Assembly (NCBI RefSeq): GCF_035083965.1
Contig: NC_089726.1
Location: forward strand, 20,130,059 to 20,194,058
DNA length: 64,000 nt
Reading direction: 5' to 3'
DNA from: Branchiostoma lanceolatum
Lineage: Eukaryota > Chordata > Leptocardii > Amphioxiformes > Branchiostomatidae
Positions 35,059 through 62,330 of this stretch are shown one piece after another. Position 1 is the stretch's first letter; each line of letters begins with the position of its first letter. The translations under genes and the position numbers were made by a program. The notes under the pieces are model-generated. The model was given only the letters and a program-made list of their open reading frames with translations, had not been told where the DNA came from and made no database searches.

Positions 35059-35241
35059 TCAGGCATAATAAGTAAAGTAGACAATCAAAAATGCCACAAA
35101 AATCACAGGGAAAACGATCCTAGCGAAGAGGTCCACTTTGTTCGCCTCTTTCTCCGCTGGGTGTTGCTTGTCCTCCTCCTCCCCGGCCCATGCTGTGGAC
35201 TGTCGTGGCGTTGGTTCCACCCTGGTCGACCACAGTGCCAG
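35059..35241 (-). CDS. Channel exon 8: M4 helix and C-terminus
   Basis: Sixty codons plus stop. An acidic stretch (AGEEEDKQHPAEKE) forms the end of a short M3-M4 loop. M4 follows as VDLFARIVFPVIFVAFLIVY and ends FTYYA-stop. The pattern matches glycine/GABA receptor M4 (R-I-x-FP-x-x-F). Acceptor CAG at 35242-35244. A further small exon in the loop cannot be excluded. Confidence 0.85.
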   Translation of the reverse strand: MALWSTRVEPTPRQSTAWAGEEEDKQHPAEKEANKVDLFARIVFPVIFVAFLIVYFTYYA

Positions 35242-38200
35242 CTGCATGTATGTGTGGGAAGCAAAAAAAAAAGAATTAGAGCGAAGGCTAGGCCGGCTCA
35301 TCTGTTCTAGGAAGACTAAGGAGTCGGATGTACATGTACATGTACAGTGTTTTTCTTAGTATTGACGAAACATTTTAAATACATTTCAATAAGCAAATCT
35401 TACATGAGATACAAATTGGTGGGTACTTTAAGCACTATCAAGCCTGTAAAACCTTTAGTTGCGCGTCTTATGCAATCATATGTATGAATAGAATGTTATC
35501 GATAAATATCAATAGAATATTATCTATGTACCAGTGAATGCCATACATTGTGCCTTGTACAATTGTTGTGCAATAAATTTATTTTATCTATTTATTTATT
35601 TATTATGTAAACACTTTTCACTCAGATGCCTTTGTGTTAAAAATATTAACACTTGTAACTCGGTAACATGGAATGGGAATCTAGATTTTAGCAATCTAGC
35701 TTTTAACATAGCTTTCTACTAATTAACCTAGCTGTAAAGAAGCTGTTTCAAACCCTGAATAGGAATAAAATAACAACCTTTCCTCCTGAGCAGATGTAGT
35801 TGACCAGAACAGTCTCCAGCAAGGTGAGCATCACCACAACAAGACATCCTATCATCCAGATGTCATAGGCTCGCACCAGGTTCGTCTGGAAGTAAAGAAC
35901 AGATGTGTAATAGCCTCTAACAGACCTTTTAGGCTGCTGACTAAATATTAAAAAATGCCCAAATAGGCTGAGTAATCTGTCGCATTTTCCACCCTTTAGC
36001 ATTTTGACATTCTCCCGCTGGACGAAAACACCAAATGTGTTATGATAGTCTCTACCACGATCCTGAATTGCTGGAGAAGTTGACCTCCAAACCTTACGAC
36101 CTTGCACGATATGGACTATGAGTATGGCGCACAAATATGTAAATATCAGTGTATTGTTTTGTATATGTGTACCTAGGACCTCCCTGAAAATCAGTGCAAA
36201 GCCATTGAGGGAGCTACCCTAGTAAAAGAATACAGTAATAGATAAATAAATAAACCCACTTGTAAATCATTTGCCTAGGCCAATTTTTAATACTTTTTTA
36301 GCAACCCAAAGAGACTAGAATCATAGCATACAGCTAGAATTTCAAGTGGCCAATCAAATAGGTCAGCGATTGGTCAAAACACCCAAGACGTTCATAACAG
36401 TCCCTAAGGTCACGTGTCTAAGGTGACTGGTTACTTGACTTCTGACCAAGACTGCAGTAACATAACTTTCAGAGAGCAAGCTGAATAAGTACCCAACAAA
36501 CCAAAGAACAAAACTCGTCAAACATTTAGTTGATGGAGGTCTTGACTAATCTCCAAGCAGATCTATAGGTTGCGAAGACCGTATCCAACTGGCAGAAGAA
36601 GTCGCTTTTGCAACCCAAGCTTGGATTGCTATACAAGCTCCTTCTTCCAGTTGGATACGGTCTTTGCAATTCATTTGGCCTGCTTGGAGGCTAGGTCTTG
36701 ACGAGGCTCACCTTGGGGTTTTCATCGTTGCTGCTCTTGATGATCTGAGACAGGAGTGTGCTGATCCCCAGTCCGACCCTCGCGTTGACCTCTCGGGGGT
36801 GCAGCCAGGTGCCGAGCCATGACGTACACACCACTGACGCAGTGGCCAGGAAGGTCTGGAGCACGTGACGCTGCAGACCGCGGGAAAACTGCAGACGGAC
36901 GTCCAGGGTGGAGATCTCACTCAGACCTGAAACATGAGCACATCATATTCGTTACTCTCCTTTGAAAGTTTCAAGAATCAACGACAGACTTTCAGATGCA
37001 AGATACTATTTTTTCAAGTTGGGTGTCTATCATTTGATTCTTAACATTTTTTTGTTTCTAAGCCATTAATGAAACATTTGTGTTTGTGTTTGAACAATTC
37101 GTCTTTTTAACGTTTCTGCAGTTCATTTGGAAATATGTGTGATGTCACCGAGACTTAGTATCTTTATGAGAATACGAAAGATCAGTTCACCTGATGTGTT
37201 GGACTTCTTGCACTCGTTGGTGTTGTACTGGCAGCTGCCGAAGTAGGCTTTGCACACAGTGCACTTGTTCCCCTGACTGCACCCCCTCATACCAGGGCAG
37301 TGGTTGGCGCTGTAGGCACACTTGCCTGTGAGCAGATGGCAGGCTGCAAGAAAACATATACTGTCGCAAGTTAGTAGTGTTCACGTTCAGAAATACAACA
37401 ACTGTAACTGTAGTTGTACTGTAATGCAGAAGTGCTCGCGGTGGTTTTATGTTCGCGGTTTTCGCGGTGAACTCTTCGGCGTAGACTTAAAACCACCGTG
37501 AAAACTTTTGCCCGCCCATGGCTGTAGCGCTACTATTGTTTCAAACGCGAAATTAAGACCGCGAAGACTCTATTTTCGTCCTACCGCGAAATAAAAACCC
37601 CGCGAACTTAAGTGCATTTACAGTATATGCTTTTCTAGGCGAGTGTTGCCATTTTTCCAAGGGAAGGTAGCTTAGTTTGGGGGATGGCATCTTCTAGAGA
37701 CCGCAGATGATGACAAAACATAGACTGTTGACGATTACCTGGCGCAGTTTTGTCCATTTTCTGGATCGAAGAATGAACCCTCAGCCCTGTCAGTTCGAAC
37801 TGCGACACGATGGCGGTCATGTCTGTCGTCACGGGCCCGGGAGAGCTTGAGTTCTTTCCCGGGAGGAGGGGGAAATACAATCCGCTGTCTGCAGAAAACA
37901 CCAATCTAATCTACTTGCCAATCGATGCACCACAGTACATTACCTTGAACTGGGAAAATCACAAATGACTAAATCCTTTGTGTAGAATTCATCAATTATC
38001 ATACCATGTCCATTGTATTAAGTTCTTAAGGTGATATTTACTTCACAACAGCTCAGAGCATCTGGAACACTGATGCTTTTTTTTTCAGAAAAAAAGGAAG
38101 ATATCTTACATCCACGTAGTTTTAATCTGCATTCCTGTTGATCCAATGGGTACCTCGCTATACTCGGCACACAGGTCAGGTACAGAGTCCCCCTGTAAAT

Positions 38201-40861
38201 GGATAATCTACATGTTAGTACGGTGTCTAATGCGTCTAAAACTATAGAATGGTAGTAAAAAGAGTATTTACAAGCAATGCAATATAACGCATAAAGATAG
38301 CGTTCAACAGACATGCAAACATACCTCAGAATGTATATACATATAGAATAGTACCTAAACCCAATCAGGAATGGGTCATATTGATCAATGTGGTGATATG
38401 TCAAATTTTTCAAATTCAAATTTTTCAAATTCAAATTTTTCAAATTCAAATTTTTCGAATTCAAATTTTTCAAATTTAATGTGAGTTAAGTCATACATTT
38501 GATAGCAACAGGACAGAAAACTTTACAGGATTGTTGTATTTCAGTAAGGAACTTATAGGACTGGATCTAGAGAGAGGTGAGGTTAGATATACAAGGAGGA
38601 AGCTCACGTCAGCCTGTGGACTAAGCCTCCAGATGGATGAAGCCACATGCTGATGTCATGGTCGCTTCCTCCTCTCCCGCGCTTTCCCTTCTTGGTGACG
38701 TCAGCAGCCCTCCGCACGGCCGCTCCGAACGCCAGCGGAGGGGCCCACATCCGAGATGCCGGCACTGGTGTCCAGTGGGTGGTCAGGCCGCGGAGACGGG
38801 GGTCAGCCCACGCCATGGTGTACCCCACTGTCACTGACAGGTTCTGTAAGAAACCATCAACCATAATAATCACTTTATCACATTTCATGAATGTTACGTT
38901 TACTTATTTTAGGGAAAGTTTTCTTTAATCTTTAAGTACTGCTTCTAAAGATTCAAGCCATGTGCCTGAGTACATATAGAAGACCGATAGGGGGAGGGGG
39001 TCAAGACGGCAGGGAAAACTAGCCTATCAATATTAATATCATATTGTTTCAATATATCATCTATTCCACTCCATTCTATCATCATCTTCTATTTTTGCTG
39101 GTCAATAACGACGTTATCTATTTCAATATCGTTCATGGGTTATGCTTATTCATTTTAACTTCATTGATGTTATTATCAGTATTTTATGGCATAAACAGTA
39201 GGGTAAAAAAGTAATATTTCCCTAAAATTGAATGTTGTGCTAGAAACCAAGAATTGCAATGATGAAAGTTGATTACCATAAGTCACTGACCGCGTTCTCT
39301 TCCGACAGAGGTCCGACATGAAGAACCGTCACCGCTGACGTCACATCAAACTTCTCTTCTGTTGTGCAATTAAAGATAAACAAAGCAAATATTCTATAAG
39401 TTGCCTGTGAGCAAACAGACTATATCATCATACAACATAAACTTGTTGCACCTTATTGTGTAGGCATTTGACAAATGTGTAGAATAAGCAAAAAAAGACA
39501 TTCAAGAAGTTGCCTTTGAGCAAACAGACTACATCATCATACAATATAAACATGTCGCACGTTATTGTATAGGTATTTATGTAGAATAAACAAAACAAAT
39601 ATTCTAGAAGTTGCCTGTGGGAACACAGACTATATTATCATACAATATAAACTTGTTGCACTTTATTGTATAGGCAATTATGTAAAATAAACAAAACTAT
39701 TATTCTAGAAGTTGCCTTTGAGCCTACAGACTAAATCATCATACAATATAAACATGTCACACTTTATTGTATAGGCATTTATGTAAATTAAACAAAACAA
39801 ATATTCCAGAAGTTGCCTGTGAGCCTACAGACTATTAGCTATATATCATCATACAATATAAACATGTCGCAAGTTATTGTATCGGCATGTATGTAAATTA
39901 AACAAAACAAATATTCTAGAAGTTGCCTTTGAGCATAAAGAATATATCATCATACAATATAAACATGTCGCACGTTATTGTATAGGCATTTACGTAAAAT
40001 AGACAAAATAAATATTCTAGAAGTTACCTGTGACAATGCAAATTATATAATCATACAATATAAACATGTCGCACGTAATTGTATATGCATTTATGTAAAA
40101 TAAAGAAAACAAAGCAAATATTCTAGAAGTTGCGCCTGTGGGAATAAAGACCATATCATCATACAATATAAACATGTCGCACGTTATTGTATAGGCATTT
40201 ATGTAGAATAAACAAAACAAAACCAATATTCTAGAAGTTGCCTGTGGGAATAAAGACCATATCATCATACAATATAAATATGTCGCATGCTATTGTATAA
40301 CTATAAACATCTATGTAGAATAAACAAAACCAATATTCTAGAAGTTGCCTTCGAGAATAAAGACTATATCATCATACAATATAAATATGTCGCACGCTAT
40401 GGTATAACTGCATCTATGTAGAATAGACAAAACAAATATTCTAGAAGTGAGAATAAAGACTATATCATCATATAATATAAACATATCGCACTCTATTGTA
40501 TAGGCATTTTTATGTAAAGTAAAGTAAACAAAACAAATATTCTAGAAGTTGCCTGTGAGCATACAGAACATATCATCATATGATACAAATCGTATGATGA
40601 TATGTTATGCTCAACTGTATAGGTATTTTGATCGTGCATGAATTTTTAATGTCAGCAACATGAAAGGTTTTTACAATGATACAACGGAGCTGTCAATCAT
40701 TGCATAGCAACTGTCAATTAAGCCCATGGCAACGTACGGCTGGGGTGATGTACTGACATTGATAGATGCAAAGAATTTGGCCTTGAACGGCTTGCATTGA
40801 GGATGGTTACTCTTCTTATACGCCGACCAGAAGAAACTATTTAACAATTACAAAAGCGTCA

Positions 40862-40903
<42 letters not shown>

Positions 40904-43900
40904 TCAATTAGTCAATGACTTTCTATTGAAACACCATAAGTGGCGTTTTGACTTAATATCATTGGTGTTAGATTTACCACTATTGTACTCTTGCGTGTGC
41001 GTATCGGGCCTCTAGCGGGGCTGATAAAAAAATGAGTCAACACACTTTGTTCTGTTTGTAAGTTTCTGTACGTCTCATTCACTCTAAAGTAGAATCTAAA
41101 GTACCTTGAACCAAAAGAACAAAACGAAACGAAAGGCTGGAGGACATTGTTATACACAGTAGAAGTAGGGTGCCGTGGTGTCGTGGGAACCTCTCTAGCT
41201 AGACTTTGTAAAGACCTAGCCATTGAGAAGAAGGTCATAAAAAGAATGGCAGAGGAAGTGGAGAAATCTAGCTTCTGGTTGTGGATCATAAGAAGGGAAA
41301 AAGCCTGGGGGAAGAAGGAGACATCATAAGTGCAAGAGTCTTAAGGAGCAGCAGTGAGGCAGGGTGGAGACGTCCTCCCTGTCGCTGCAGTAGTGGTAGC
41401 AGCAGCAGTAGTTGCAGTAGTAGAAGTAGCAGTAGTATATACAGTAGTAGGAGGAGCAGTGGTAGTTACAGCAGCAGTAGTTCTAGCAACAGTAGTTGCA
41501 GCAACAGTAGTTGCAGCAGTAGTAGTAGTTACAGCAGTTGTAGTAGATGCAGTAGTAGGAGTAGGAGCAGTAGTAGAATCAGTAGTCATTGCAGTAGTAG
41601 TAGAATCAGTAGTAGTATAATCAATAGTAGTAGCAGTAGAAGTAATAGTAGTAGTAGCAGTAGTTGTTGTTGTCATCGCTGTTCTTGTAGTCAGAGCAGC
41701 TGATGAAGGTGTAGCTGTTGTTGTTTGGGCTGCAATTGGAAAATAGAAAACAGTCATACAATTGAGGGAAATTGTCTGTGATACATTCAAGCTAGCTAAG
41801 GGAACTCAATGAAGTTGGGATAGTCTAAATGGTGCCTTACCTTCCCGCACTGATTTATCAGATTGATTTAAGAAATGATATGACCTTTACTTGGCGCAGT
41901 AGGGTAAAAACGCACAGATCTTCATCCATATTCATTAAAACACTTGAACCGGCACTTGCATTTTACCATGGCCAACAGTATTTCCAGGGGATGTGAATTA
42001 CCACAAATTAAAGAATAATATACCATAAAAGTTGTATCCTGTCCCTTCAAGTGAAGAAAATGTAAGTAAATTTGGCTTGAGATACATTCGATTTCGCAAT
42101 AGGAGGGAAACGCTTTGCAAGAAGTTCTAACAATAATTGATATTTGCATAATCAGTGCCATTTTCTGTGTCATGAAAACCTTTGCTTAAGAAAATATCAT
42201 TACGTCGGAGCCCTGGATCGTCTATTGCGAAGGGATCACAAGCTAGATATAGGGCAAGGTAAATTGCGTAGGCCAATCATTTAGAATATTACACCATTTT
42301 GTTGTAAAATGTCGTACACGTTGAACACTCATTCTCCGTTAACGTGTGCAATTGCTGACGCACAAGTATATCCGTGTAGTTAATTGTTAAATCGCACATT
42401 GCCTTCGTCTTTGGTAGTTAAATGTCACAAGTAGATATAAAAAATACGAATAGTAACCTTTTTATCGTCATGGCAGGCAATTTTTAGGTCGTAAAGGACA
42501 TTATTTTGGTTTGTAACCGTCGAAAATGTAGTTATAGTAGTTATATGTTATATATATACATATAGCAGTTATATGTTAGGCCCATTGCATAAGCTTTATG
42601 AAGAACTTTAATTTTCACTATTTTCAACCCCCAATTGCACACGTTAACGGAGAATGGGTGTGAAGCTCATTCTGTTCAAATTCTTTTTTAGTACGCGTCA
42701 TATTTATACATTTATTTACTAGACATTTAGACATCTGGAAGGGCCATCCATTTTATATGTCTCAAGTATTTTCGGTTAAAAGACGAATCAAGGTCTACCT
42801 GTTAGTAGTATTCTCATAATGTTGCAGGGTATCCTAAGAAAGCCTTGAGCAGCTGGATACCTAAAGTATGCATACCTATGGGATTACCAATGCTGTATTT
42901 GTAGTTTTTTTAGGTGGCAGTCTCAGAGGTGTATTAACTACATATCATGTCACAAGAAACGAATATAAAAAACAGGCCACACTAAAAATGTCACATATTG
43001 ACACGCTAAGCAACAATACATGTACATAACACAAGGCGTACATGTCTTTATAAATAGCTATGCCATTCTTGACAAGAAGCAATTTAAACGAGGGGTGGGA
43101 AAAGAGACAGGGATAGCAAGTAGATAAGATAAAATGAAATAATATGAAAAAAAAAAGCAAAAACAGTAAGGGAAAGCTGCTTAAAATGGAACGAAATGAG
43201 GAGAGAACATGATAACAACGATAGTATTTAGGCTATCAGTTTTAGCAGATAGATTTGGGAGCTGGAAGCAACGAAATAGAAATTTACCTTAATGCATGCA
43301 TACTGACCCAGGGATAATAATGTTGCAAAGTAATGATAACGACGTCGGTGATTATGACGCATACCTTGATCTATCTGACAGATGAATCGTCCCGAGTTGC
43401 TGCATCCCAAATCATTCCACGTGGACCCAGTCAATCGGAAGACGGCACAGTTTTCCCCAGTGCCACCATTCGGTTCATTCCAGCTCTCATTGTACCAGTT
43501 GGAATAGCCGGTTGACTCCAGGGTTTGTCCGTCCTCAAAGACCCACTGGCCTTCACTGTCGGAGTCAGTCAGCCCAATCCAGCGGTTTTCTCCGACGGAG
43601 TCGCCGTTTCCCAGTCCGGCAATAAAATTGTTGGTCTCACTGTCCTTCGGCATGGCCAACATTGCCCCATCTGCGGCACACGTATCTTTGGCCTCATCGT
43701 AGTTCTTCTCATCATCAAAGTACTTGTAGCAAACCCCGTTAAAATGTTCGTAGCCTGGCGTTGGACACCCTGTAGGGAGAAAATTGAATTTGTAATGTAT
43801 TTAATGAACTAAATATGTTTGAGGATGCGATAACCGTGTGTACATGACTTTGAGGTCTTTTTAGGTCAGATCTGTCAATTGCAAAGGCCAAAAAGCGTCG

Positions 43901-49900: not shown

Positions 49901-52900
49901 GGAAGACACCATCTCACGTACAAGTGTAAGATATTACCAGTCTGGCTAATTAATAATAATAGAATATTCGTAAGCTGTTTAGTGAGAGATAAAGAGGCCT
50001 AGAGTCTAGAGTCTGAGGGAGTCAGAGAACAGAGTCAGTACAAACGCCGTCCTGTTTGTAAGCCAGGAGGTTATAGGGCCTCTATAACTATTACTCTATA
50101 ACCTCCTTGGCGTAAGTGCCTGTGGAATGTTTCCCGACTATGAACCAGCGCCTGTCTATGTGCCGAACCGCTGACTAAGTGAGTATATTAAAAGTACACA
50201 GCGCAATGTCCGAATGTATGTAATGTCCTAGGAAATTCCCAGTGCCGACTGATGTTCTCGTGATTGTGTCATCCTCGTTCACCAGGACCCTTCCGCTCCA
50301 CGTTACATTCTGCGAGCGATGTAAAGTGGAGCGGAAGGGTCCTGGTGAACGAGGATGGATTGTGTAAACTTGTGCCGTAACTTGTGTTTATTATTGTGTA
50401 TGTCAATAAATATCATTCCCGGGACACAGAATCCAGTATCGAACCGTCTTTGCTTATTATACTTGTAGTGGTATAAATATAGCGTAAGGGTAAATTGTTA
50501 CAGCGTTATCAGCGTCGACAGGCTATTCAAAATCCGTCGACAGCGAGAAACAAGATAGAAATTCCCCGGTACTATAAAGATGATATGAAAGGTTCTTATT
50601 TTTTACTTCAGTAAGCGTAAGTTTCGTTGTCTTACCACTGATGGTTCTATAGATCTATGACATCTATCAAGACCTTGTTAGATAGGTAAATAGATAGAGA
50701 AGTATCATACAGATGGAGGAGTGGGGCGGGCATCGAGGCTACAGTCCCTCGAGTTAGATCACAAGACTATGAACGATGTATCGATTTAAGTCCGAAAAAT
50801 TCTGATGGCTAAAAATTCTGATGAACGTAATTTACTATACACAAAGCTATTATATAATTTCTCTCAATGGATTTAAACAGCAAGTTCATAGCCACCCGAG
50901 GACAACCTGCTTTGTAGGCCTCCCAGGCCGCGCCGGCGATTATGTTTAAAACTAATCGGGGTCTTTTGCTAGCCTCCGATGTAGACTCAACCCGGCTGTT
51001 TTCTTTTTCAAGTTATTGTTTTTATACTATTATATTTCTGTTCTTATTGCTGGCAATAAGAAAAAATATAATAGTATAAAAACAATAACTTGAAAAAGAA
51101 AACGGCCGGGTTGAGTCTGCATCGGAGGCTAGTCTTTTGCTAGGGAACATTAGTAAATAAGCCGCCACTTGACGGGTTCTACACGGGTTCCTCGGCAAAA
51201 GACCCCGAAGTTGAAAAACGCGAATCAGCGCTCCCCTCAAACATTATCGCCGACGCCGCCTGGAAGGCCTTTTACAGTTACAGGGCCCTACTATGCTGGT
51301 CATGCCTGGCACGCTGGGGTGTCTTAGTAGGGAGATGAAGCTGTCAGTGCCAGATTAAGGGACGCTAATGAGACATCTGTGTTTTTCCACCACGATGTCA
51401 AATAGAAAGACGCATTCTTCACATTTTTGGGTGAAAACGGAATATAGTCATAGGATTAAGTATATACAAATGAGATATCAAGCATTAACATGCTGTAGAT
51501 GAACTTACTTTTGAACCTACGTCTAAGCTAGGTCCTCAAAACAATAGGTTTCTTGAATGATCTTCTAAACATTCATGCAACACTGCCTCCTGACCACCTT
51601 GCCTTATATTTTACCTCGTCATCGTCGAATTTGTAACCAGGAAGAAATAGATCGGAGGTCAAAACACACGTAACTTTCCAAGGAAAATATTCCTTGTCAT
51701 ATCTGTATGTGGGTCATATGACCTCAAATGTTGCCTGATTAGCCTGTACTTAACTTAAGGCGAAAAACGTAACAAGTCCATTTACCATCACGGATACCGC
51801 AACATCTTGGAGGGAAACCTGTGTTGTAACTAAGAAACAGACTTAATATAAATTTTATATAGATTATATTCCACATGATAGGAGGGCGGAGCCCCTGCCA
51901 GGCCGTCTGGAGGCTGACCGCAGGGCCACTCTCCTTTTAGCATGAGCTCCCTCAGGGAGCTCCCTGATTGGAAAAACACATCGTTCTCTACTCCTCTCTA
52001 CTAGTGGGAATGGTACCAAAGTAGGGCTGGATTGCAGACTGGAAGTTTGATATGGCGGGCCTTCGATTCATTCTATGCAGGCCCAGGGTTTTACAAGCAA
52101 GAACACTCAGACCACTATGAAAGCTTCCTTTGCAGTCCCTTTTGGCGGCTTTGCAATTTCGGACCGAGGGGGGGGGGGGGGGGGGGATTGCGGACATCTT
52201 TTGATAATTTCTGGGGTTTGCATTGATAATGTTTTTGGAAAAGTTTGGAAGTACCCTATCTGACCGAAGACGAAGACTCTTCTCTATTGCACAACAATTT
52301 TACAATATACAATGTATGGCGTCTACTGGTACTTTACTACAGCACAATTGGCTATATAATCTACCAAATGCAAGAGTGTATAGTATAGGATCATGAGCTT
52401 TCACAAGCGTTGAAATAATTTATAGCATCTAGACATTCTTTGATACATGTTCCTACATGTATGTACACCATGCCGGGGCTGCTACAGGTCAATATCTACT
52501 TTTAGAAAAACTTGAAGATTATTCAACCAGGCTTGACTGTGACTGACATTCTGAACGAAGGGCCTAGGAGAATGTTAGAGCCAAGACGCTGGACTGTACA
52601 CATCGAGAAACCATCTGGCTCACAGACTCCCTTACCCTATAGCTCTCGAAATCTAACCGCCAAGAAAAGTTGACCTGCCCCATGGGAATATATCATACGG
52701 CTGGGCTGTAGGCGCATTGGCAGCCTTTCTTTAACAAAGAAAGATAGTTGCCTTGCTCCATAAATTGCCTATTGTCAGTTTTCAATTGCTTGGGACGAAA
52801 AAGGCAACGGCTGTTTAGAAAATAAATGGGTACCGGGCAGGGCGAATACAGGGCTAAGGTATTTCCAAATTCCAGTTCTTTCTTTTCAGACAAGTATAGT

Positions 52901-55900
52901 TTTACTTTACTTTCTAGATCTTTCAACGGCTCAGACTGGACCAGTCAGATCTAGTACTGAACCTGTCACTAACAGAGGATCACAGAGCTTTACATGTGTG
53001 TTTGGGGTTATTTGTACGTCTTTTTTTAAATGGACCATTCACACCGTATACTTACAAGACTTACAACGTTCGGGATTTCTGTTTTTATCCTCATGAAGAT
53101 ATAACCAACCTGAACCTAGCCCTCGATTCGGCCGTCAATTCCAAGCCTTCGATTCTGCTGTCGATCAGATTTTGATTAATCGTAACTGTAGGCAAAGTAG
53201 AGTAGAGTAGAATTTTCGGTCAGGTAGGAACTTACATGTCTGTATAGCGTAAAATCCAGCCGTCCGGGGGTTTATGTCCCCTCCCGGCCTCTGGCCGGTC
53301 ACGGGCCGGTGACTAGAACCGCGGTTAAAACAAACCAGGCTATAGGTAAACACAAGGACATTATGATGTCATAATGTCCTTGGTAAACAGCATCTACTCT
53401 CAAAGCAGAGGTTCGACTCAGGCAGGTTTTTGACGTGTTGTTAGGCTTCTTGGTCGGGCTTTCTATTTTGTTTTCCCTATGTTACCCGGCCATATAAAGA
53501 AAAGTTGACGAAATAGAAAGCCCGACAAAAACGCCCAACAACACATCAAAAACCCACCTGGGCCGAACGTTTGCTTAGGAGAGTAAACATAAGCTTGGAC
53601 AGTAGGATTCTAAAAAGGACCAGAACAACCCTTTTTCAGTTGTATCGTTGAGTCAAGGAAGTGTTTTTCAAAAAGTTTGCAATTATATGTGTAAGTCTTT
53701 AGAAATTTAACGTAAAGGGGTAATGTTTATCTACAATGAAGTCTGGTTTTCCGTTTTTGTCCTCACGAAGATACCGGAATACTGATGCTGGAATATACTT
53801 CCCTGAGATCAACCGTTACTGTTAGCCTGGTTGCCAGACCACCGCGCTACTGGCGCTCAGAATCCTTCGGCCGGGGAAGCAACTCGCGCCGCCACCACAG
53901 ACAGCACACGGCCCACTAATAGCGCGATAGATATCAGGGTTCGGCTGCCAAGCACCCGGGTGCCAACTCTATCCCTACTACCAGGTCTTCCCCGGCCAAA
54001 AAGGCTTATCATCGCATCGCGCGAAAGGTCTGGTATCCAGGCTACGTTACTGTTGGTCCGGCGGCCGAAGACTCTTCAGTAATTCAATACACAATGCACC
54101 GTAGGAGCTTCTCTGGCTGGTGTGTGCATCGTGTAGATCTGCTGGGAGATTAGGCCGCCTGCCGCTGACAGGAAACGGGACACGTAACAGACGGACCGAA
54201 ACAACCCTTGTCAGTTGAGTCAAGGACATTATATAGTCGTCCTATACAATGTCCTTGGTTGAGTGAAAGAAGCAGAAAAAAAAGAAACGATTAACAATCA
54301 AAAGATATCTTTGAAATGTAACTTATTCTACTTAAACCGTCAGATAACCGACCCCTTCGTGACCTTTGTTTGGCCTATTCCGAGGATTCCTTACAGGAAT
54401 GTGATTTTGAGTAGAGAGTTCATTAGATGCTTGGGGGGAGTGAGGAAGAGTTGTTCTCTACGGCGGTCTGAGCTTCGGGTTCAAGCTCATCCCGCCAAAA
54501 GGCCAATGAGGTTCTTTAAACGGACATATTTCAATTTAAGAAACAGTGTCATGAATAGACATAATCAACGGTCATCCGTGTTAATATACATAATGTACAG
54601 TCCCTTTGGTGACCTCGGTCACTACATATGATTCACATATGGTTCCAATGTATGGACAGTCGGAAACCAGAAGAGGCTCCCATTCATTCAAACGCTGTTT
54701 ACAGCCTACGGTACTTTCATTTGTGGCAACTACGGTGGCTGTACACGTCTGCTTTGGAATATGCCTTTCCTGAGAAGGTATGTTTAACTTATTGCTGACA
54801 TCATACACGGCACCACGCGAGGTTGGGTACCGAGAGGCCATCTTATCGAGTGACCGTATTTTAGGGGAGGGGAGGAATGGGGTGGTAAGGGGGCATTCTC
54901 ATCTGCGCATGAAACTTGCTATTTCCGCAGGCATTCAGAAATCTTGAAAAACAACTGAGCATTGCTAAAACGGTAGCATTCCGTCGGTTCATGATCAGGC
55001 TACTCTCAACAATGGATGCCATTCTCTTGTCGCATTTTACTGAGACTGTTGCCATTTGTTCTAGATTTAGGAGTGGTGTCGACCTTTTGAAGACTTGCTG
55101 TAAGGGATATCTAGCGTTTTTTCCAGAAACAATGATGTGCATAAAGGTAAGTTTGGTTGCCCCATCTATCTTTATGTGCCATGCTAGTTGTATATAACTT
55201 ATAAGAAGTAAGCCGTGCCCACTGCTATTCCTATGATTCAATGGGGGATTAAGGGTCAACACGATGAATTACTGTTTCTCTCCAAAGGTCGGTCGCAGAA
55301 CACAGTTTTTATCCGTGACGCGGGTACAGAAAATAGTGCGGCCCAAACTCTTAAAGACTGGGTAGAACGCTGCATGTGAGAGGCATCCATGTGTAAACTG
55401 TGGTGTAGAAATATATCGGCTTATAGACTGCAGGATTTGGAAAGTGGGCCTTTTCCGCTTTGTGTATAAAAGCGCCATTTTGTGCAACCGCCTCACGGGG
55501 TCAGTCGGCTGGAGTTCAGTGACCTCTCGCAGAGCAATGTTTCAGGGGAGGGAGTACCTAAACAAACTTCCATATGATTCTGTACAAAACAAGGAACAAA
55601 AACTGGCTTCAAAGTACACTTAACAGTATTTCAATGTCCAAAATCTTCCACCCACTGGACAGCTAAATATGTCTAGTTGCCGTTTTTGGAAAAAGCCGGG
55701 GTTCGACTCCTGCGTTCTGACGCACAAGACCTGTTTGAACGTAAACAACGACCTTACCCCCTGCTGCTGGGAAACACTGGACTAGTTGGGGAAAACCCCT
55801 TACCAAAAGATGTAATTCTATACCACAACAGATGTCAAGGGTCACAATTTCTTTCTGGATTTGAAAAGTTAACAGATGTCTGGTCTCCCTGCCTGAAAAA

Positions 55901-58900
55901 ATGGCCAGAAATTGACCAAAGATTTCACCGGGAAAAACTTCTCAAAATCAGTAACAAAAAAAAATGCAAACTGGGCTTTGTGCGCATGGCCATTAACAGG
56001 TCCCTCCCCTTCAAAGTGGGCGTAAGGAGCCGATACGCCGACAGGATTTTTTGTTTGTTTTTTGTTTGTTATTTGTAGGTTGTACCCTAAACTCAAACAT
56101 ATTCGTTTTTTCGTATTTCTCAAGTGCACCGCGCAAATTTTTTTACCGCGTTGAAGCTAGTCACCTTGGGGCCCGTACATCCACATAGGCCGGAAACGTG
56201 TTCTGCTTCCCTTCAAACCGGCTGTCTTTTTAGATTTTGACTGGGCCATATCATAGGACCGTAGGGTTTATTTGAATGACGGTTCCCTATCAACAGACGT
56301 TAGGAGTGCCAAGAATGTTATTGACCCAAGTCAAGATATTCTCGTTATATATATATGATCACCAGCCGTCTTTGTTTCCCTAATACTAGTAATTAGGCCG
56401 TTATGAGACACCTTCTGATCTTCTGAAGTCCGCGAGGGACTTAAGTCAAAGCTGTTTGATAGAAGCAATGAGGTGATAGTTTTACCTGCACCACAGTCAA
56501 GGAACGAACATAAATAGAGGGTGTCTTTGATCATTCTCCTTCCATATTACTAAATTACTACCTCTTACTATTCATGAGCCCTTTTACTTATCTTTTGCGA
56601 GTTGCTAGAAGTTTCTTGTGTGAATATAGCTACTGGTTGTTGCCTACTGGTTTCTGTTTACTGTATATGCAGCTCTTATTATTGTGTATGTTTACAGAAA
56701 ATGTATTCATTAAAATGTTCCATAGTTCGCCAGTATACAAAGGTAAAGACTATTCAGACAGCCCTGCCTCACAATGCAAGGTTTCATATCGTCTTCATAT
56801 CAAAATTACAGCACAATCAAGCTATCACTAGTACTGATCCCACACGTGATCGCAAGATGGATTGTAATCTTTCTGAACGTACATTTTATGCAGTGGATTC
56901 CTATATGTAACGTTGACCATGTCTCTAATGAATGTATCATGAGGAATACCTGAACCTATTGGCTGTTCTTATGGGCTGTACCTAAGCAAAATATGTTCTC
57001 CTGCTTCAGTTGTTCTCTTGTTTCCGATTATAATATGTTTTTTTTTCTTAACTGCAGTCCTTAGCCGAAATTTGTATTCCATTTAATCTCGTCTTGCATA
57101 TACGTAGCCTAGTGTTGTATGTAGGTATGCATGCAATAGTGTAATGCATGTAAATGTATACGCCAAACGACGTGTCTGTGTTTTGTCTGGACTTGTGCTA
57201 TCATGCATGCTGTGTGTAAAACACGATTTGGGCCACATATTGTGCTATATCAGTGTGTTAGATTAGGTGTTATTCTCCAATCAATCATCCATTCATTCAT
57301 TTGCTACAGGTTGCTGTTGAAAGAACCACGATGGCTTCAGGTTGCTGTTCAGAGAAACAAAATGGTTGGAAAAGACGAGGGAACGTAGTAAGCAAGGATG
57401 GTCTAGTAGTGGTCGCGCTGACGGGAGAACGGCAAGCTACAAGACGTAGCCAGGGTCGAGAGCGTACGTGTAAGGGTAGTGCAGGTTTGTTGGGCTTGAC
57501 CGAACTGATAATGACGTCTTCTCACGACAAGTGGAAGAGCCTGGCTTCATTCATAGTTTATTGATACACATATGTATTTACTGACAGCCTCTAAGCAAGG
57601 CCTTGGAGAGGGTGAAAAATTATTAAGGCCTAAAGATGCTTTATAGGAATATGTATATACATGTACTGTCTACATTTGCAATACTTTCTCAATGTATCGA
57701 ACGAAAACAAATTGTGAGTGAATTGCCAAGGGAAAATCCATAAGACAGCAAATATGAGACCACTTTTCCTAAGATCGTTTCATTTTTTCCTGACAAGGTA
57801 ACAGTATCAATTGCACTAAAACTTTTGTAAATCTGTAAAACTCAATTTTGCATCTATTGTTAAATGTAGCTTTCTTCTCTGTGTCCTCTGTTTTGAGGAT
57901 TTAAATCAAATTTAATTCGTTTTGATTTGAAGTCATGCGCAGGGACTATTGACGAAATAGTCGACGTCGGCCCGTTCTCCCGGAAGGGCAATCGCCACAC
58001 CTACTGGAAGAACAGCCGCTCCTAGCTACCGGCCGTGCAATTATCTTCAGCTACCGGCCGGGCAACTGCCTTCATCTACCAGCCGGGCAACTGCCCTGGG
58101 CTACCAGCCCGGGCAACTGCCCGGTGCTACCAGCCGGGCAACTGCCCTGAGCTACCCCCCGGGCAACTGCCCTGAGCTACCGGCCGGGCAACTGCCCTGA
58201 GCTACCGGCCGGGCAACTGCCCTGAGCTACCAGCCGGGCAACTGCCCTGAGGTTTCGGCCGGGCAACTGCCCTGAGGTACCAGCCGGGCAACTGCCCTGA
58301 GGTACCGGCCGGGCAACTGCCCTGAGGTACCGGCCGGGCAACTGCCCTGTGCTAGCTGCTGGCCGGGCAACTGCCCTGAGCTATCATTCAAAATGATGAA
58401 ATCAAGACGAGACGGCTGAATAATACAAATATTGGTCAGGGCAATCGCCCCCACTAGTCAGATATTTCAGAAAATAAGTGTCGTTAAAAGACAAATACTT
58501 GTACAAGATGACGTGATTTTTTGAAAAGTTCAACCCTCAATTTTCGAATTTTCAAGGAAAAAAAGAGGAATAAAATGGATTTTCCCTTATTATTTTGGAT
58601 TCTGTTAGTATATGTATGTTAACGGCCATGTTGAGTAATGAAATTGGACAAATTAATTATGCCCACCACGTCTTTCTTTACGGACGTGAGCGATGACATA
58701 GGCGGTTTGTGAGCAAAATCTCCCCCTTCGACGAAACCAGTTCGTGTGGTTCAAATTCGTCTATTGACAAATACCAGAAATATACACCATAAAAAACATA
58801 AGTAGCAATTTGAATGAGCGGTGAGAATAGAGACAGAAGGGATCGCAATTACAATATAGAATAGAATAGAATGGAATGGAGTGGAACAGAATAGAATAGA

Positions 58901-60733
58901 ATAGAGACATTATCTTCTTGGCGAAAATAAAAACAAATAGAAGACTGCTTCGAAGAGATTAAAAGAAGGAAAGCAAAACAAAGATAGTTAACTTCTTTTG
59001 AACTCCATCCTGTAGTCAGGCCATCGATTTTAGCTGGTAAATATTGGAGTTGGTAGCAACGGAAGAAGGCTTACTATGCTGAACCTTGGATAATAATGTT
59101 GCAATACTTCTATCAGTAATGATAATAAAGCCCCGGTCACACATAGCCAAACATGACCTCCCGACCTTCCCCCGATCGGAGCGGTTCGGGAGCTAGGTCG
59201 GCTGTGGTCGGCTCAGTTGGCTTGTAGTTGGCTGCGCCAGCGACATTTCTAAACATTCGGCTGTGAACGGGAGGTCGGGAATGGGTTGGCTGCTGGTTAG
59301 CTGGTGGTGGTGGTTGGTAGGGAATCAGTAGTGGTCAGGGTGTGTTTGGGTGTCAGATTTGAATCTAAAACTTGTCAGACTGCTCCCGACCTACCGCCAA
59401 CCTTTGTTGGCCGGTTGTCGGGAGCCATCTTCGGCCATGTGTAACCCGGGCTTAACGTAGAAGATTATTAAGATACACACCTTGGTCTATCTGACAGATG
59501 AATTGTTGTCTCGAGCTACAACTAAAATCGGCCCACAACAAACCGGACGGAGTGAGGGCAGCACAGTTTTTTTCGGTGGCCGCATTATTTGGTTCACCGG
59601 GATGCCAGTTGGAATAGCCGGATGACACCAGCGTTTGTCCGTCCTCAAACACCCACTGCCCTACGCTTCCAGTCAGCCCAATCCAGCGCTGCGATCCCTC
59701 TCCAAGCCCGGCGATAAAAGTGTTGGTCTCACTGTCCTTCGGCATGGCCAACATTCCCCCGTCTGTGGCACACGTCTGTCCGGCCTCATCGTAGGTCTTC
59801 CGATCAGCAAAGTACTTGTAGCAAACTCCGTTAAAACGAACGTAGCCTGGATTTGGACACCCTGTAGAGGGAAAAATAAGTTTCTAATTCAGTTAAATGT
59901 GTAGCAACTAGTTCCTCCTTAGCAATGTTTTTGTAGCAAACTACATTAAAACGGTCAACGTACATATTGTCTAGACACCCTGTAGAGAGAAGAATAACAG
60001 TTACATAATGTTGTACTTCAATAAGTTACAATTAGAGCCAAAGTCACATGTATGTGTTGGGAAGTTTGTAATGTTTTAAGATGAAATTCAAAGGCCAAAG
60101 AAATCTAATTAATGAATTCTTTGTGCATTTCAAACCACCTACTGGGCAAAACATGAATATTATGTATTACTAAGCGCTCGTCTTCAATAATATAAACCAC
60201 TAATGTCAGAATTTTTCAGCTAAATCAAAAATGATACAACAATAGATTAAGTATAGATCAAACTAACTTAAAACAAGCCAAACAGAAGTATAGAGTACAC
60301 ATCCGAAAATAATTTATCAGGTTGCTCGAATATAGGGTATAGGAGATTTTTTTTAAACAACCAGGTAATCTCACCTGCTAACGTTTCGGTGTCTGTCAGA
60401 CACCTTCTGAAGTTAGAAGCTCTGAAGAAGGTGTCTGACAGACACAGAAACGTTAGCACGTGCGATTACCTGGTTGTGTAAAAGGAATCTCCTATACCCT
60501 ATTAAGTGCACAATTTGAATGCTACGTCATAAATGTATATGGTATCATAAACTACTATGGGCGGGTCAAATTACAAAGCCTTCCTTTAATGTCTAATACA
60601 TTTTAGCGCAACATAAGCCAAAAAACAGCAACACAGTTATGAAGTGGACAAAACCTTCCTTACCGGACGGAGAGACGACAAGAAAAATGGCAAACGCAAC
60701 GACAACAGCCAAGCCTAAACCTTGCTTGGCCAT
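35059..60733 (-). CDS. Chimeric lectin / mucin-like / Cys-loop ion channel gene (proposed)
   Basis: Proposed exons, 5' to 3' on the minus strand: 60733-60664 signal peptide; 59861-59481 C-type lectin 1; 43769-43365 C-type lectin 2; 41729 to about 41345 Thr-rich; 39358-39291, 38843-38608, 38192-38110, 37888-37739, 37343-37191, 36926-36712, 35885-35778 and 35241-35059 pentameric ligand-gated channel. Signal and lectin exons all join in phase 1, and the Thr-rich exon accepts phase 1. The eight channel exons join cleanly to 397 aa. The first channel exon begins mid-codon and has no leader of its own, so it needs upstream coding exons; the lectin exons provide a leader. Unresolved: the Thr-rich exon has no phase-1 GT donor, so a small exon between 39.36 and 41.34 kb is missing, or there are two genes. 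The protein would sit in the plasma membrane, with lectins outside and a probably anionic pore. Confidence 0.6.
35778..35885 (-). CDS. Channel exon 7: M3 helix
   Basis: Thirty-six codons, phase 0 to 0. RAYDIWMIGCLVVVMLTLLE then TVLVNY matches Cys-loop M3 (compare the A-x-DIWM-x-x-C pattern of glycine receptors). The donor after AAG is GTTGTT, weak but the only one before a stop. Confidence 0.85.
36547..36693. mobile_element. MITE, TAATCTCC/GGAGGCTA ends, 9-bp duplication, beside a splice donor
   Basis: A 147-bp foldback with internal arms GACCGTATCCAACTGG and complement. Flanked by perfect GGTCTTGAC repeats (36538-36546, 36694-36702). The exon 6 donor of the channel gene is at 36711-36706, so the insertion lies 9 bp into the intron. 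Confidence 0.85.
36712..36926 (-). CDS. Channel exon 6: loop C end, M1 and M2 pore
   Basis: Reads LDVRLQFSRGLQRHVLQTFL (last beta strand into M1), M1 ending TSWLGTWLHPRE, then M2 VNARVGLGISTLLSQ, then SSNDENPK toward M3. Alanine at -1' and arginine at 0' with no -1' Glu point to an anion-type filter. The usual -2' Pro of anionic channels is Asn. The 9' Leu is present. Confidence 0.88.
37191..37343 (-). CDS. Channel exon 5: inserted 8-Cys module
   Basis: Fifty-one codons, phase 1 at both ends, with eight cysteines (pattern C-x7-C-x6-C-x5-C-x5-C-x2-C-x6-C-x7-C). It falls between the loop F exon and the strand leading into M1, where other Cys-loop receptors have the loop C hairpin. The acceptor TTCTTGCAG and donor GGTGAAC are good. 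No standard pLGIC contains such a block. Confidence 0.8.
37413..37625. mobile_element. MITE with TACTGTAAATGCA ends, copy 2
   Basis: The left end TACTGTAATGCAGAAGTGC pairs with the right end TTAAGTGCATTTACAGTA. Internally TCGCGGTGGTTTTA is paired with TAAAACCACCG. Same family as 15125-15296. Intron of the channel gene. Confidence 0.8.
37739..37888 (-). CDS. Channel exon 4: ligand-binding domain, loop F region
   Basis: Reads SGLYFPLLPGKNSSSPG, then IVSQFELTGLRVHSS, corresponding to the (Y/F)-L-x-x strand after the Cys-loop in GABA-A receptors. Phase 1 to 1. The start completes the conserved GY split with exon 3. Confidence 0.85.
38110..38192 (-). CDS. Channel exon 3: Cys-loop
   Basis: Reads GTLYLTCVPSIARYPLDQQE followed by C. 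Two cysteines enclose exactly 13 residues and carry YPLD, the family F/Y-P-x-D signature. It ends at KLRG, joined to the next exon to give the conserved GY. Confidence 0.93.
38404..38476. repeat. 15-bp tandem repeat
   Basis: About five copies of TTTTTCAAATTCAAA with minor changes, in an intron of the channel gene. Confidence 0.95.
38608..38843 (-). CDS. Channel exon 2: ligand-binding domain core
   Basis: LSVTVGYTMAWADPRLRG holds the pLGIC W-x-D-x-R-L motif. SRMWAPPLAFG matches the (I/M)W-x-P-x-x-x-F strand that follows, and HDISMWLHPSGGLVHRLT leads to the Cys-loop exon. Phase 0 in, phase 2 out. Confidence 0.93.
39291..39358 (-). CDS. Channel exon 1 (first recognised): start of ligand-binding domain
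   Basis: Reads EKFDVTSAVTVLHVGPLSEE, then NA, the first beta strands of the domain (compare V-x-V-x-x-x-I-x-S-I patterns). It starts with the last two bases of a codon after CAACAG, so coding sequence must precede it. Donor GTCAGT. Confidence 0.8.
39375..40600. repeat. Satellite-like array, about 12 units of 95-110 bp
   Basis: Each unit contains AATATTCTAGAAGTTGCCTG, CATCATACAATATAAACATG, TCGCAC and TTATTGTATAGGCATTTATG. It fills most of the 2-kb intron between the Thr-rich and first channel exons. The right end carries a small palindrome at 40567-40607. Confidence 0.92.
40567..40607. repeat. Palindrome at the array edge
   Basis: AACATATCATCATATGAT, a few bases, then its reverse complement. 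It looks like an inverted end of the neighbouring satellite unit. Confidence 0.7.
40861..40901. repeat. (AATC)n microsatellite
   Basis: Ten near-perfect AATC units. Confidence 0.95.
41345..41729 (-). CDS. Thr-rich mucin-like exon
   Basis: About 128 codons, over half threonine, with Ala, Ser and Pro (for example TTTDSTTTAMTTDSTTAPT), a dense O-glycosylation target. The acceptor AATTGCAG gives phase 1 and joins lectin exon 2 in frame. Frame stops at TAA 41343-41341. The exact 3' splice point is not found: no codon offers a phase-1 GT. The DNA is a degenerate (ACT)n tract, so length is probably polymorphic. The long Ser-rich frame on the other strand is its shadow. Confidence 0.65.
41800..43364. 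other. Intron sequence, no feature seen
   Basis: Between the Thr-rich exon and lectin exon 2. AT-rich. Two copies of an inverted ACACGTTAACGGAGAATG motif lie near 42328 and 42640. No exon supported. Confidence 0.5.
43365..43769 (-). CDS. C-type lectin domain 2 (EPN and WND motifs)
   Basis: One exon of 135 codons, phase 1 to 1, holds the whole domain. It starts CPTPGYEHFNGVCYKYF, has the WIGL motif (ENRWIGLTDS), EPN (SWNEPNGGTGENC) and WND (STWNDLGC), and ends GRFICQIDQ. EPN plus WND is the calcium site of mannose/GlcNAc-type lectins, so carbohydrate binding is likely. About 60-65% identical by eye to lectin exon 1. An N-glycosylation sequon (NES) lies before EPN. Confidence 0.92.
43880..44005 (-). 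pseudogene. Decayed copy of the exon-1 upstream region
   Basis: GAAGGTCCCATGGGAAATTAT and flanks match 60800-60870, just 5' of the signal-peptide ATG. The translated pattern NFPWDL..H.TNTT is kept in both, but the signal peptide is lost here. It marks the start of the second copy of a duplicated exon-1/lectin unit. Confidence 0.65.
44250..44715. repeat. 25-bp minisatellite GGGCAGTTGCCCGG, left arm
   Basis: About 18 copies of a 25-bp unit (some 29 bp), each with GGGCA..TGCCC, able to fold. An inverted, shorter array is at 58015-58385. Confidence 0.95.
48613..48649. mobile_element. 37-bp palindromic insertion, CAAGGACATTAT family
   Basis: CAAGGACATTATAT, a short centre, then the reverse complement. 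Flanked by perfect ACTCAAC at 48606-48612 and 48650-48656. Confidence 0.8.
50065..50107. repeat. Small hairpin
   Basis: AGGAGGTTATAG pairs with CTATAACCTCCT, with GGGCCTCTATAAC between, which pairs again with part of the arm. Confidence 0.7.
50270..50357. mobile_element. 88-bp hairpin element with 8-bp target duplication
   Basis: Left arm CATCCTCGTTCACCAGGACC and onward, 39 bp, pairs with the right arm with one mismatch around a 10-bp loop. Flanked by perfect GATTGTGT (50262-50269, 50358-50365). CA...TG ends and 8-bp duplication fit a hAT-type MITE. Confidence 0.88.
50970..51131. mobile_element. 162-bp hairpin MITE, TAGCCTCC ends, 9-bp duplication
   Basis: Arms of about 70 bp (TAGCCTCCGATGTAGACTCA ...) with very few mismatches. 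Flanked by perfect GTCTTTTGC (50961-50969, 51132-51140). Same family as 2920, 36547 and 53823. Confidence 0.9.
51284..51960. repeat. Interspersed repeat, GGCCCYACTATGCT family, copy 2
   Basis: Related to 25313-25900 along its length (GGGCCCTACTATGCTGG, TCGTCGAATTTGTAACCAGG, GAGGGCGGAGCCCC). Confidence 0.55.
53353..53382. mobile_element. 30-bp palindromic insertion, CAAGGACATTAT family
   Basis: CAAGGACATTATGA then its reverse complement, flanked by perfect GTAAACA (53346-53352, 53383-53389). Confidence 0.8.
53395..53585. mobile_element. Hairpin MITE, TACTCTC ends
   Basis: Same arms as 31923-32105 (GTCGGGCTTTCTATTTTG and complement). Flanks AACAGCATC and AACATAAGC agree at 6 of 9 positions, a possible eroded duplication. 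It starts 5 bp after the previous element's direct repeat. Confidence 0.75.
53823..54044. mobile_element. 222-bp MITE, TAGCCTGG ends, 9-bp duplication, with empty site in other arm
   Basis: TAGCCTGGTTGCCAGACC pairs with GGTCTGGTATCCAGGCTA. Perfect CGTTACTGT flanks (53814-53822, 54045-54053). The left arm near 48822 has the uninterrupted site with one copy (CGTTAATGT), proving insertion after the arms formed. Confidence 0.93.
54221..54257. mobile_element. 37-bp palindromic insertion, right-arm counterpart
   Basis: Mirror of 48613-48649, flanked by GTTGAGT (54214-54220, 54258-54264). The loop differs from the left arm's (TAGTCGTCCTAT versus TTGGATGACTAT). Confidence 0.8.
58015..58385. repeat. 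25-bp minisatellite, right arm
   Basis: Inverted counterpart of 44250-44715 with about 14 units of CGGGCAACTGCCCTGAGCTAC type. Confidence 0.95.
58600..58720 (-). pseudogene. Continuation of the duplicated exon-1 upstream region
   Basis: ATGTTAACGGCCATGTTGAGTAATGAAATTGG...TATGCCCACCA matches 60893-60955. With 43880-44005 it rebuilds the second copy of the region, interrupted by the giant repeat. Confidence 0.65.
58856..58908. repeat. (AATAG)n pentanucleotide repeat
   Basis: About ten imperfect AATAG/AATGG units. Confidence 0.9.
59133..59455. mobile_element. Foldback element, second copy of the 961-1809 family
   Basis: AGCCCCGGTCACACATAGCC and, at the right, GGCCATGTGTAACCCGGGCT, flanked by TAA on both sides. 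It ends about 25 bp from the lectin exon 1 donor. Confidence 0.75.
59481..59861 (-). CDS. C-type lectin domain 1 (EPN motif)
   Basis: 127 codons, phase 1 to 1. Starts CPNPGYVRFNGVCYKYFA; WIGL (QRWIGLTGS), EPN (WHPGEPNNAATEKNC), and WADFSC where WND is expected, so one calcium ligand position is altered. Ends QQFICQIDQ. The sugar site is probably still mannose-type but may bind more weakly than domain 2. The acceptor CTACAG joins the signal-peptide exon in frame. Confidence 0.92.
60331..60502. mobile_element. Hairpin element in intron 1 of the lectin gene
   Basis: TAGGGTATAGGAGA pairs with TCTCCTATACCCTA; arms continue over AACCAGGTAATC and CTAACGTTTC. The centre holds a nested palindrome GGTGTCTGTCAGACACC. 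About 172 bp, non-coding. Confidence 0.85.
60664..60733 (-). CDS. Signal-peptide exon of the lectin/channel gene
   Basis: MAKQGLGLAVVVAFAIFLVV then SPSG, a textbook signal peptide, ending phase 1 at donor GTAAGG. Two further in-frame Met codons lie upstream (to 60850). I chose the one at 60733 because the hydrophobic core follows directly. Confidence 0.8.
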
Positions 60734-62003: not shown

Positions 62004-62173
62004 CTTGCTCTTGGGTTTCCCCCCTTGTCTGATACTGTTGTACTGGTCGAGGGTGAAGTCTTTAACCCTGGTGTAGCCGCTCCTGGAGATGTTGACGGCC
62101 TGGTTAGGGTAGCACAGGGAGGCCGCTGCACCCGCCAGGGTGGTGGAGTACACCGCCTTCTTTATCAAACCGC
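62004..62173 (-). CDS. MIC26/MIC27 (APOO/APOOL-like) MICOS subunit, one exon
   Basis: Inner-membrane protein of the mitochondrial MICOS complex, which shapes cristae junctions. The exon reads [20 protein letters not shown] then YPNQAV and [27 protein letters not shown] proteins have the same order: basic KK, a short helix with A-S-x-x-YP, then a V-x-(D/S)-(W/F) segment. Acceptor CTCCAG at 62174, donor GTTAGC at 62003. Upstream exons should lie at higher coordinates, perhaps beyond the window. The short remaining C-terminal exon, if any, was not found. Confidence 0.7.
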
Positions 62174-62330
62174 CTGGAGTGTGGAAATTAAACACTTTTT
62201 AGTAGTTAGGTCCACTGCCTTGTCAATCAAACCGCTTGGAGTGTGTTTAAACAGGCATTGGGTGTGATGTAAAGAACACTTGCAGCAACATGCGCAAAGG
62301 TTAGCTGTGACAGGACGTTTAGTGTAATAT

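Follow-up and report, generated by a model that had tools for sequence, protein, structure and literature searches.

Does a single gene on the minus strand of a 64,000-nucleotide stretch of the Branchiostoma lanceolatum genome (the window) join two C-type lectin domains (CTLDs), a mucin-like stalk and a pentameric ligand-gated ion channel (pLGIC) into one receptor? An earlier note on this DNA had proposed such a fusion, naming the junction between the stalk exon and the ligand-binding domain (LBD) of the channel as its weak point. We analysed the two halves, the junction between them and the related lancelet proteins. The features of the window are collected in Table 1.

Table 1. Features of the window (positions counted from its first nucleotide), in the reading direction of the minus strand
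Feature	Position	Strand	Remarks
Signal-peptide exon	60664..60733	-	MAKQGLGLAVVVAFAIFLVVSPS; phase 1 at its end
C-type lectin exon 1	59481..59861	-	EPN and WAD; phase 1-1; Pfam Lectin_C 69.6 bits
Stretch with inverted arms between the lectin exons	44031..58598		14.6 kb; arms at 44.03-48.83 and 54.05-58.60 kb
Copy of sequence 60880-60769, which precedes the signal exon	43891..44001	-	76% over 113 columns; upstream of lectin exon 2
C-type lectin exon 2	43365..43769	-	EPN and WND; phase 1-1; Pfam Lectin_C 75.9 bits
Thr-rich (mucin-like) exon	41341..41729	-	TAA stop included at 41343-41341
Opposite-strand ORF adjoining the Thr-rich exon	41093..41329	+	putative retroelement 3' fragment
Minisatellite	39376..40580		101-bp unit, 11.6 copies; immediately ahead of channel exon 1
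Channel exon 1 (beta-1)	39291..39358	-	frame begins in phase 1; 79-96% identity to the relatives shown
Channel exon 2 (WADPRL, loop A region)	38608..38843	-	spliced frame and relatives
Channel exon 3 (13-residue Cys-loop CVPSIARYPLDQQEC)	38110..38192	-	spliced frame and relatives
Channel exon 4	37739..37888	-	spliced frame and relatives
Channel exon 5 (8-Cys module replacing loop C)	37191..37343	-	spliced frame and Cys pattern
Channel exon 6 (last beta strand, M1, M2)	36712..36926	-	N-A-R-V at what we take to be positions -2' to 1'
Channel exon 7 (M3)	35778..35885	-	spliced frame and relatives
Channel exon 8 (short M3-M4 loop, M4, stop)	35059..35241	-	spliced frame and relatives

The front half agrees well with what the earlier note had read from the letters. 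The claimed signal exon, two lectin exons and Thr-rich exon are borne out by their exon borders and by the Pfam scores of the lectins, both above the Lectin_C cut-off of 22.6 bits, and the spliced protein contains EPN in both lectins and WND in the second, as had been stated, with WAD in the first. Ca-dependent sugar binding by CTLDs follows a motif rule of EPN or QPD plus WND. Leader, lectins and Thr-rich exon form an open frame of 414 aa, in which the phase-1 joining described for the front exons holds from the signal exon to the start of the Thr-rich exon and fails at its end. Following a split first codon, this exon encodes 116 residues, 61 of them Thr, and then 12 unlike residues that bear no resemblance to the stalk. 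In the frame continued from the lectins it ends in ...TTAATGRTSPPCLTAAP and TAA.

The channel half likewise holds what had been described, namely eight exons with WxDxRL (here WADPRL), a 13-residue Cys-loop with its conserved Pro, M1-M4 and consistent phases. All eight exons (39358-35059) have AG acceptors and the seven that need a donor have GT, and once spliced they give a single open frame of 397 aa that matches Neur_chan_LBD at 40.5 bits (cut-off 26) and Neur_chan_memb at 61.4 bits (cut-off 28.1), with the four transmembrane helices recognised by Pfam. A search with the channel exons returned 11 proteins at E <=1e-3 from 4140 candidates, all of them named Branchiostoma, the closest being a B. 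lanceolatum ‘GLRA3’ model with 89% identity over 397 aa. The best single-sequence match was the GABA-A beta-1 subunit (E 2.4e-26) and the best profile match the glycine receptor (GlyR) alphaZ1 (E 8.7e-61), from a profile that was helped by the two ordinary insect channels in it. An AlphaFold2 model of the relative P0001 had four late helices at low confidence (pLDDT 49.6, pTM 0.40, from a 12-row alignment); this model and one from a 14-row alignment (pLDDT 36.1) were too weak for the loop-C module and the ligand pocket to be read. The 50 Foldseek matches listed for P0001 were GABA-A and glycine receptors, at TM-scores of 0.37-0.43 by query length.

The ligand side of this channel departs from the familiar receptors. 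Loop C is replaced by a module of 44 residues with eight cysteines (C-x6-C-x6-C-x5-C-x5-C-x2-C-x6-C-x6-C), for which Pfam gave no match at 37191-37343. The pattern is found in the window and in 10 of the 13 family members tested and in none of three comparators; among the exceptions, the P0003 and P0011 models are incomplete at this point, and in P0005 a Tyr replaces one of the Cys. The distant lancelet paralogues P0014 and P0015 also carry the module. Furthermore, in the profile alignment the column of the GlyR Arg located three residues before the Trp of WxDxRL (FLRQQW), which we take to be part of the glycine agonist site, is occupied by Thr in the window (YTMAW). Because of this Thr and of the altered loop C, a classical neurotransmitter is a doubtful ligand for a channel of this type. 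M2 starts with A-R (REVNARVGLGIS), in keeping with the anion-type rule as it stands in the part of PMC549065 considered here, and the N-A-R at the pore border points to an anion channel.

It is the join between the two halves, from 41345 to 39358, that we could not confirm. By the frame of channel exon 1 the acceptor at 39359 needs phase 1. There are seven GTs between the start of the Thr-rich exon and 41322, six of which precede the in-frame TAA, five in phase 0 and one (41371) in phase 2; none of these six is a phase-1 donor (GT donors only). In all eight relatives compared (P0001-P0006, P0012 and P0013), alpha-1 lies ahead of beta-1, and in P0013 a Ser/Thr/Pro-rich stalk end and alpha-1 come before the corresponding point, the sequence being ...SEDNATQEEWNEWRTGERMPREYNKNASPQT and then EEKFEV. 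The relatives were compared as proteins, exon borders being known for the window only. No stalk-end/alpha-1 stretch was found in the window by hmmsearch --max with a profile of the eight relatives (best E 4.9, off target) or by tblastn (best E 0.065, off target), and the place expected for it is taken by the 101-bp minisatellite and an ORF on the opposite strand at 41093-41329. This ORF presumably corresponds to the C-terminal end of a retroelement reverse transcriptase, and had no match in Pfam. Thus, given the stop codon, the missing phase-1 GT donor and the missing stalk-end/alpha-1 stretch, the join of stalk to LBD as proposed is not supported in the window copy.

The channel part had also been said to have no leader of its own, and this holds: no signal peptide directly before the LBD was found between 39360 and 43364 on the minus strand. 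Scanning from 43364 down to 39360 gave 13 candidates running from an ATG to a phase-1 donor, nine with a hydropathy of at least 2.0 (four inside the minisatellite, four upstream of the Thr-rich exon and one at 41289), and these were rejected as a channel leader exon since no likeness to the relatives' sequence was noticed. At the same threshold, six of 11 control stretches had none and the other five had 1, 69, 3, 2 and 1, so the target stretch exceeds 10 of the 11 controls, which counts against the explanation we consider best.

We then turned to related proteins. A search with the linker and channel of P0005 gave 12 proteins (P0005 included) among 7994 scored candidates and yielded P0013 and P0012, and one with the two CTLDs of P0013 gave 37 proteins at E <=1e-30 (P0013 included) among 2319 candidates and yielded P0034. 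The order that the earlier note had suggested looking for in related lancelets, with lectins ahead of a channel, is present in P0013, a B. lanceolatum model of 773 aa that follows the window from a near-identical leader through two CTLDs, a Thr stalk (331 residues, 161 Thr) and alpha-1 to the start of the LBD. Compared with the window, 101 channel residues show 92% identity and the lectins 60-64%; the leaders read MAKLGLGLAVVVAFAICLVVS in P0013 against MAKQGLGLAVVVAFAIFLVVS in the window, the proteins agreeing at 19 of the first 21 positions, and the residues right after the second lectin read AQKTTAAPSSTALTT against AQTTTATPSSAALTT. The model stops where channel exon 2 of the window ends and, ending this early, its LBD scores 23.9 bits in Pfam, below the 26-bit cut-off. 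Its sugar motifs, EPD/WVD and KPT/WED, compared with EPN+WAD in lectin 1 and EPN+WND in lectin 2 of the window, are degenerate, so that sugar binding, judged from sequence, may not be conserved, and they may leave room for protein ligands.

Other ectodomains are carried on the same alpha-1 sequence by two models without a leader. P0012 (B. floridae x B. belcheri, 896 aa, isoform X2) combines Methyltransf_FA, Sushi and a 225-residue Thr stalk with a complete channel, and P0005 (B. belcheri, 677 aa) has a partial CTLD, F5/8C, a stretch aligning with the Sushi domain of P0012 that itself has no Pfam match, and a channel up to M3. The more distant P0034 (B. floridae x B. japonicum, 1091 aa) comprises a leader, a WSC-like domain (20.2 bits, below cut-off), two CTLDs, a kringle and a Sushi domain in the position of the Thr stalk of P0013, and a nicotinic-type channel. 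As its M2 border is G-D-R, P0034 is assigned by sequence to the cation branch, and its fusion is most likely of separate origin from that of the P0013 type. Among the 37 proteins of the CTLD search, only P0013 and P0034 contain channel sequence, according both to precomputed Pfam domains and to a blastp comparison of the window channel with all 53 proteins. The single lectin-receptor-channel of the original proposal is therefore not upheld for the window copy but finds support in the family, with the P0013 order in one predicted protein and with P0012, P0005 and P0034.

The lancelet channel-bearing models number 16 (P0001-P0015 and P0034), four with extra ectodomains and 12 without. Leader and channel sequence occur together in two only (P0013 and P0034), and no P0013-family model spans leader to M4 as a single model. 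Half of the 12 unfused models (P0007-P0011 and P0015) begin inside the LBD or later and are uninformative on a leader; the other half (P0001-P0004, P0006 and P0014) reach alpha-1 without a hydrophobic leader. In a simple Kyte-Doolittle scan their best 10-residue mean was 1.72, compared with 3.4 in P0013, 2.93 in P0034 and 2.44 and 2.9 in the ordinary insect channels P0016 and P0017, which have hydrophobic starts. The shared alpha-1 sequence opens with Ser/Thr/Pro-rich, stalk-like residues. Since a hydrophobic leader is missing and stalk-like sequence lies ahead, these models are best explained, as far as gene models allow us to infer, as the back halves of fused genes. Candidate front halves also exist: P0022 and P0028 belong to the same leader family and have no channel, their modules being FBG/CTLD/F5-8C/Methyltransf_FA/Sushi or CUB/CTLD/FBG. 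Possible pairs of split halves (P0022 with P0001/P0002, P0028 with P0011, P0024 with P0012) share a chromosome at best, a hint given little weight because unlike models pair likewise (P0044 with P0001, P0020 with P0003). Annotation errors do affect these loci, as P0035 (B. lanceolatum ‘COLEC10’) unites an ApoO-type exon, the counterpart of which lies in the window at 62174-62031, with CTLDs and is apparently a wrong merge.

Taking these observations together, we lean slightly towards the view that lectin-pLGICs form a real family in lancelets and that the copy in the window is broken or misassembled; intact members, as predicted gene models, would be fused receptor-channels. The order of P0013, the presence of P0012 and P0005 ectodomains on the same alpha-1, the leaderless unfused models and the lost join all speak for it, as do the channel frame intact over eight exons, the matches to GABA-A and glycine receptors and P0034 as a second architecture. 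Such an open eight-exon frame is, on the other hand, unexpected in a long-dead copy, only two of the 16 models combine leader and channel, and the merge in P0035 shows what can occur at such loci. That merge also suits an explanation by two adjacent genes, i.e. a secreted lectin-mucin ending at the TAA and a channel gene with first exons that have been lost or have escaped recognition, the fusions in the relatives being annotation merges. The in-frame stop and the lack of a phase-1 GT donor in the Thr-rich exon would be natural in that case, P0001-P0003 and P0022 of B. lanceolatum do exist as separate models, and the six unfused models that start too late cannot reveal a leader. CTLD genes are abundant in lancelets, so a chance CTLD neighbour is easily had. 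We nevertheless hold two genes to be somewhat unlikely, as a hydrophobic leader is lacking in all six unfused models that reach alpha-1, the same alpha-1 sequence with its stalk-like lead follows a different ectodomain in each of three models, and P0022 and P0028 are of the same leader family, with the end of P0028 looking like read-through past the lectin donor rather than a clean end.

It is improbable, more so than two adjacent genes, that the gene is intact in the animal and that only the assembly lacks the stalk end and alpha-1 exon, the Thr-rich repeat and the 101-bp minisatellite having been mis-joined or drawn from another haplotype. The gap does sit between two repeat arrays, the channel frame is open across its eight exons and the near-perfect 14.6-kb inverted repeat nearby could have troubled assembly; yet the window contains no Ns, the DNA between the arrays looks ordinary and the retroelement-like ORF beside the Thr run has the appearance of a real insertion. 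We give hardly any credence to the literal reading, in which the Thr-rich exon is spliced to 39358 and the window is one working receptor without alpha-1. The halves lie on the same strand in the right order, and a cryptic phase-0 GT in the Thr repeat, spliced to an AG five or eight bases into channel exon 1, would preserve the reading frame; such a cryptic splice could be the only remaining way to unite them. Against this stand the lack of a phase-1 GT donor and the alpha-1 found ahead of the join point in all eight relatives compared, and an LBD without alpha-1 would be unlike known pLGICs. Indeed, we know of no pLGIC whose ligand-binding domain lacks it.

If the window is a damaged copy, an intact subunit would consist of a leader, variable modules (two CTLDs in this case), a long Thr-rich stalk, alpha-1, the LBD and M1-M4, and would be of the GlyR/GABA-R type. 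As assembled, the copy in the window has a truncated stalk exon that runs into a stop codon, and it lacks the stalk end and alpha-1; the predicted products would be a secreted lectin-mucin of 414 aa and a leaderless channel fragment instead of a single receptor. The leader of an intact chain would direct it to the cell surface, where five subunits might assemble into an anion-type pore, with stalks of a few hundred Thr-rich residues holding the lectin domains, ten at most, at a distance from the membrane. By binding glycans, these domains would then tether and concentrate the channel at a mucous or microbial surface or at that of a neighbouring cell, and gating would fall to a separate small ligand or to the altered Cys-rich loop-C module. 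We regard tethering and concentration at a glycan-rich surface as the probable role of the lectins and direct gating by sugar as distinctly unlikely, because the stalk seems too long and flexible to transmit a small conformational change. More tentatively, and with a little less than even confidence, we suggest that in lancelets pLGICs, which serve animals as neurotransmitter receptors, have been turned into pattern-recognition ion channels whose ectodomains, of immune type, can be exchanged for one another (CTLD, fibrinogen-like, CUB, F5/8C, Methyltransf_FA, Sushi and kringle), many of them on mucin stalks. This would hold for two or more branches of the channels, including an anion type with the 8-Cys loop C and a nicotinic cation type, and the window copy would be a member breaking apart.

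With GlyR and GABA-A subunits the window channel shares an LBD with WxDxRL, a 13-residue Cys-loop with YPxD, M1-M4 and A-R at the start of M2; unlike them it has no leader before the LBD, a 44-residue 8-Cys loop C and Thr in the GlyR Arg column, and its relatives carry lectin/mucin ectodomains. Multi-domain CTLD proteins of lancelets, secreted or membrane-bound, combine CTLDs with the same shuffled FBG, CUB, F5/8C, Methyltransf_FA, Sushi and kringle modules, but the others examined have no pore, or end in ZP-C (P0039) or a 7-TM receptor (P0044). The latter, a B. lanceolatum adhesion-GPCR model (ADGRL3), has an N-terminal C-type lectin domain, and lectins seem, from this model, to have been grafted onto other lancelet receptors too. 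Polycystin-1, a channel-complex protein with a WSC and a C-type lectin domain in its ectodomain, belongs to a different channel superfamily and has no Cys-loop LBD. Bacterial pLGICs with PBP-I or Cache/MCP-N fusions, and DeCLIC, share with the lancelet models extra sensor modules between leader and LBD, and differ in being prokaryotic and having other modules, with no mucin stalk reported in the portions of PMC549065 and PMC12664993 considered.

In those portions of PMC549065, animal Cys-loop channels are called stereotypic, with an LBD and four transmembrane segments, and extra N-terminal modules are prokaryotic. A 2016 survey of pLGICs discarded extra termini and urged the study of architectures, as far as the extracts considered go (PMC4795631). 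The 2014 lancelet genome paper, in the parts considered, describes exon shuffling at a rate unmatched among metazoans, biased towards phase 1-1, and counts CTL and FBG among the fast-evolving receptor families, the words lectin and ion channel being absent from the text considered (PMC4284660). In the part of PMC4529745 considered, lectin and channel Pfam names come together only as separate rows of a secretome table. In agreement with the claim that no lectin-pLGIC had been described, we found none among the full-text literature matches listed, which covered few subscription journals and no preprints, and this kind of receptor seems to be so far undescribed. If real, a lancelet family of lectin/mucin pLGICs would break the rule of stereotypic architecture in a chordate, could link the sensing of glycans or microbes directly to fast ion flow and would offer a natural test of whether a long stalk can tether or gate a pLGIC. 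The finding is also relevant to the extreme exon shuffling of lancelets and its 1-1 phase bias mentioned in those parts of PMC4284660.

The arms of the inverted stretch between the lectin exons measure about 4.6-4.8 kb and both contain a 25-bp satellite; among the 20 arm pairs listed, 10 are 97-100% complementary, and the other 10, at 83-91%, are all the satellite out of register. No clear target-site duplication was seen by eye at 44031-58598. The stretch represents a large inverted-repeat transposon or else an inverted duplication of recent date. The idea that this repeat had duplicated a single lectin exon into two was dropped, as both lie on the minus strand and outside the arms. Because 43891-44001 copies sequence that precedes the signal exon, a separate gene copy may once have begun with lectin 2, its signal exon having since gone; no signal exon was seen beside 43891-44001. 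A further lectin-exon remnant with an early stop (GCLDNMYVDRFNVVCYKNIAKEE-stop) lies at 59909-59991, just upstream of lectin exon 1. On the same strand, an ApoO-like gene has an exon at 62019-62174 (24.7 bits for Pfam ApoO, under the cut-off of 31.4), and on the plus strand an open frame of 772 aa at 27913-30228 contains four Sel1 repeat stretches (78.7 bits).
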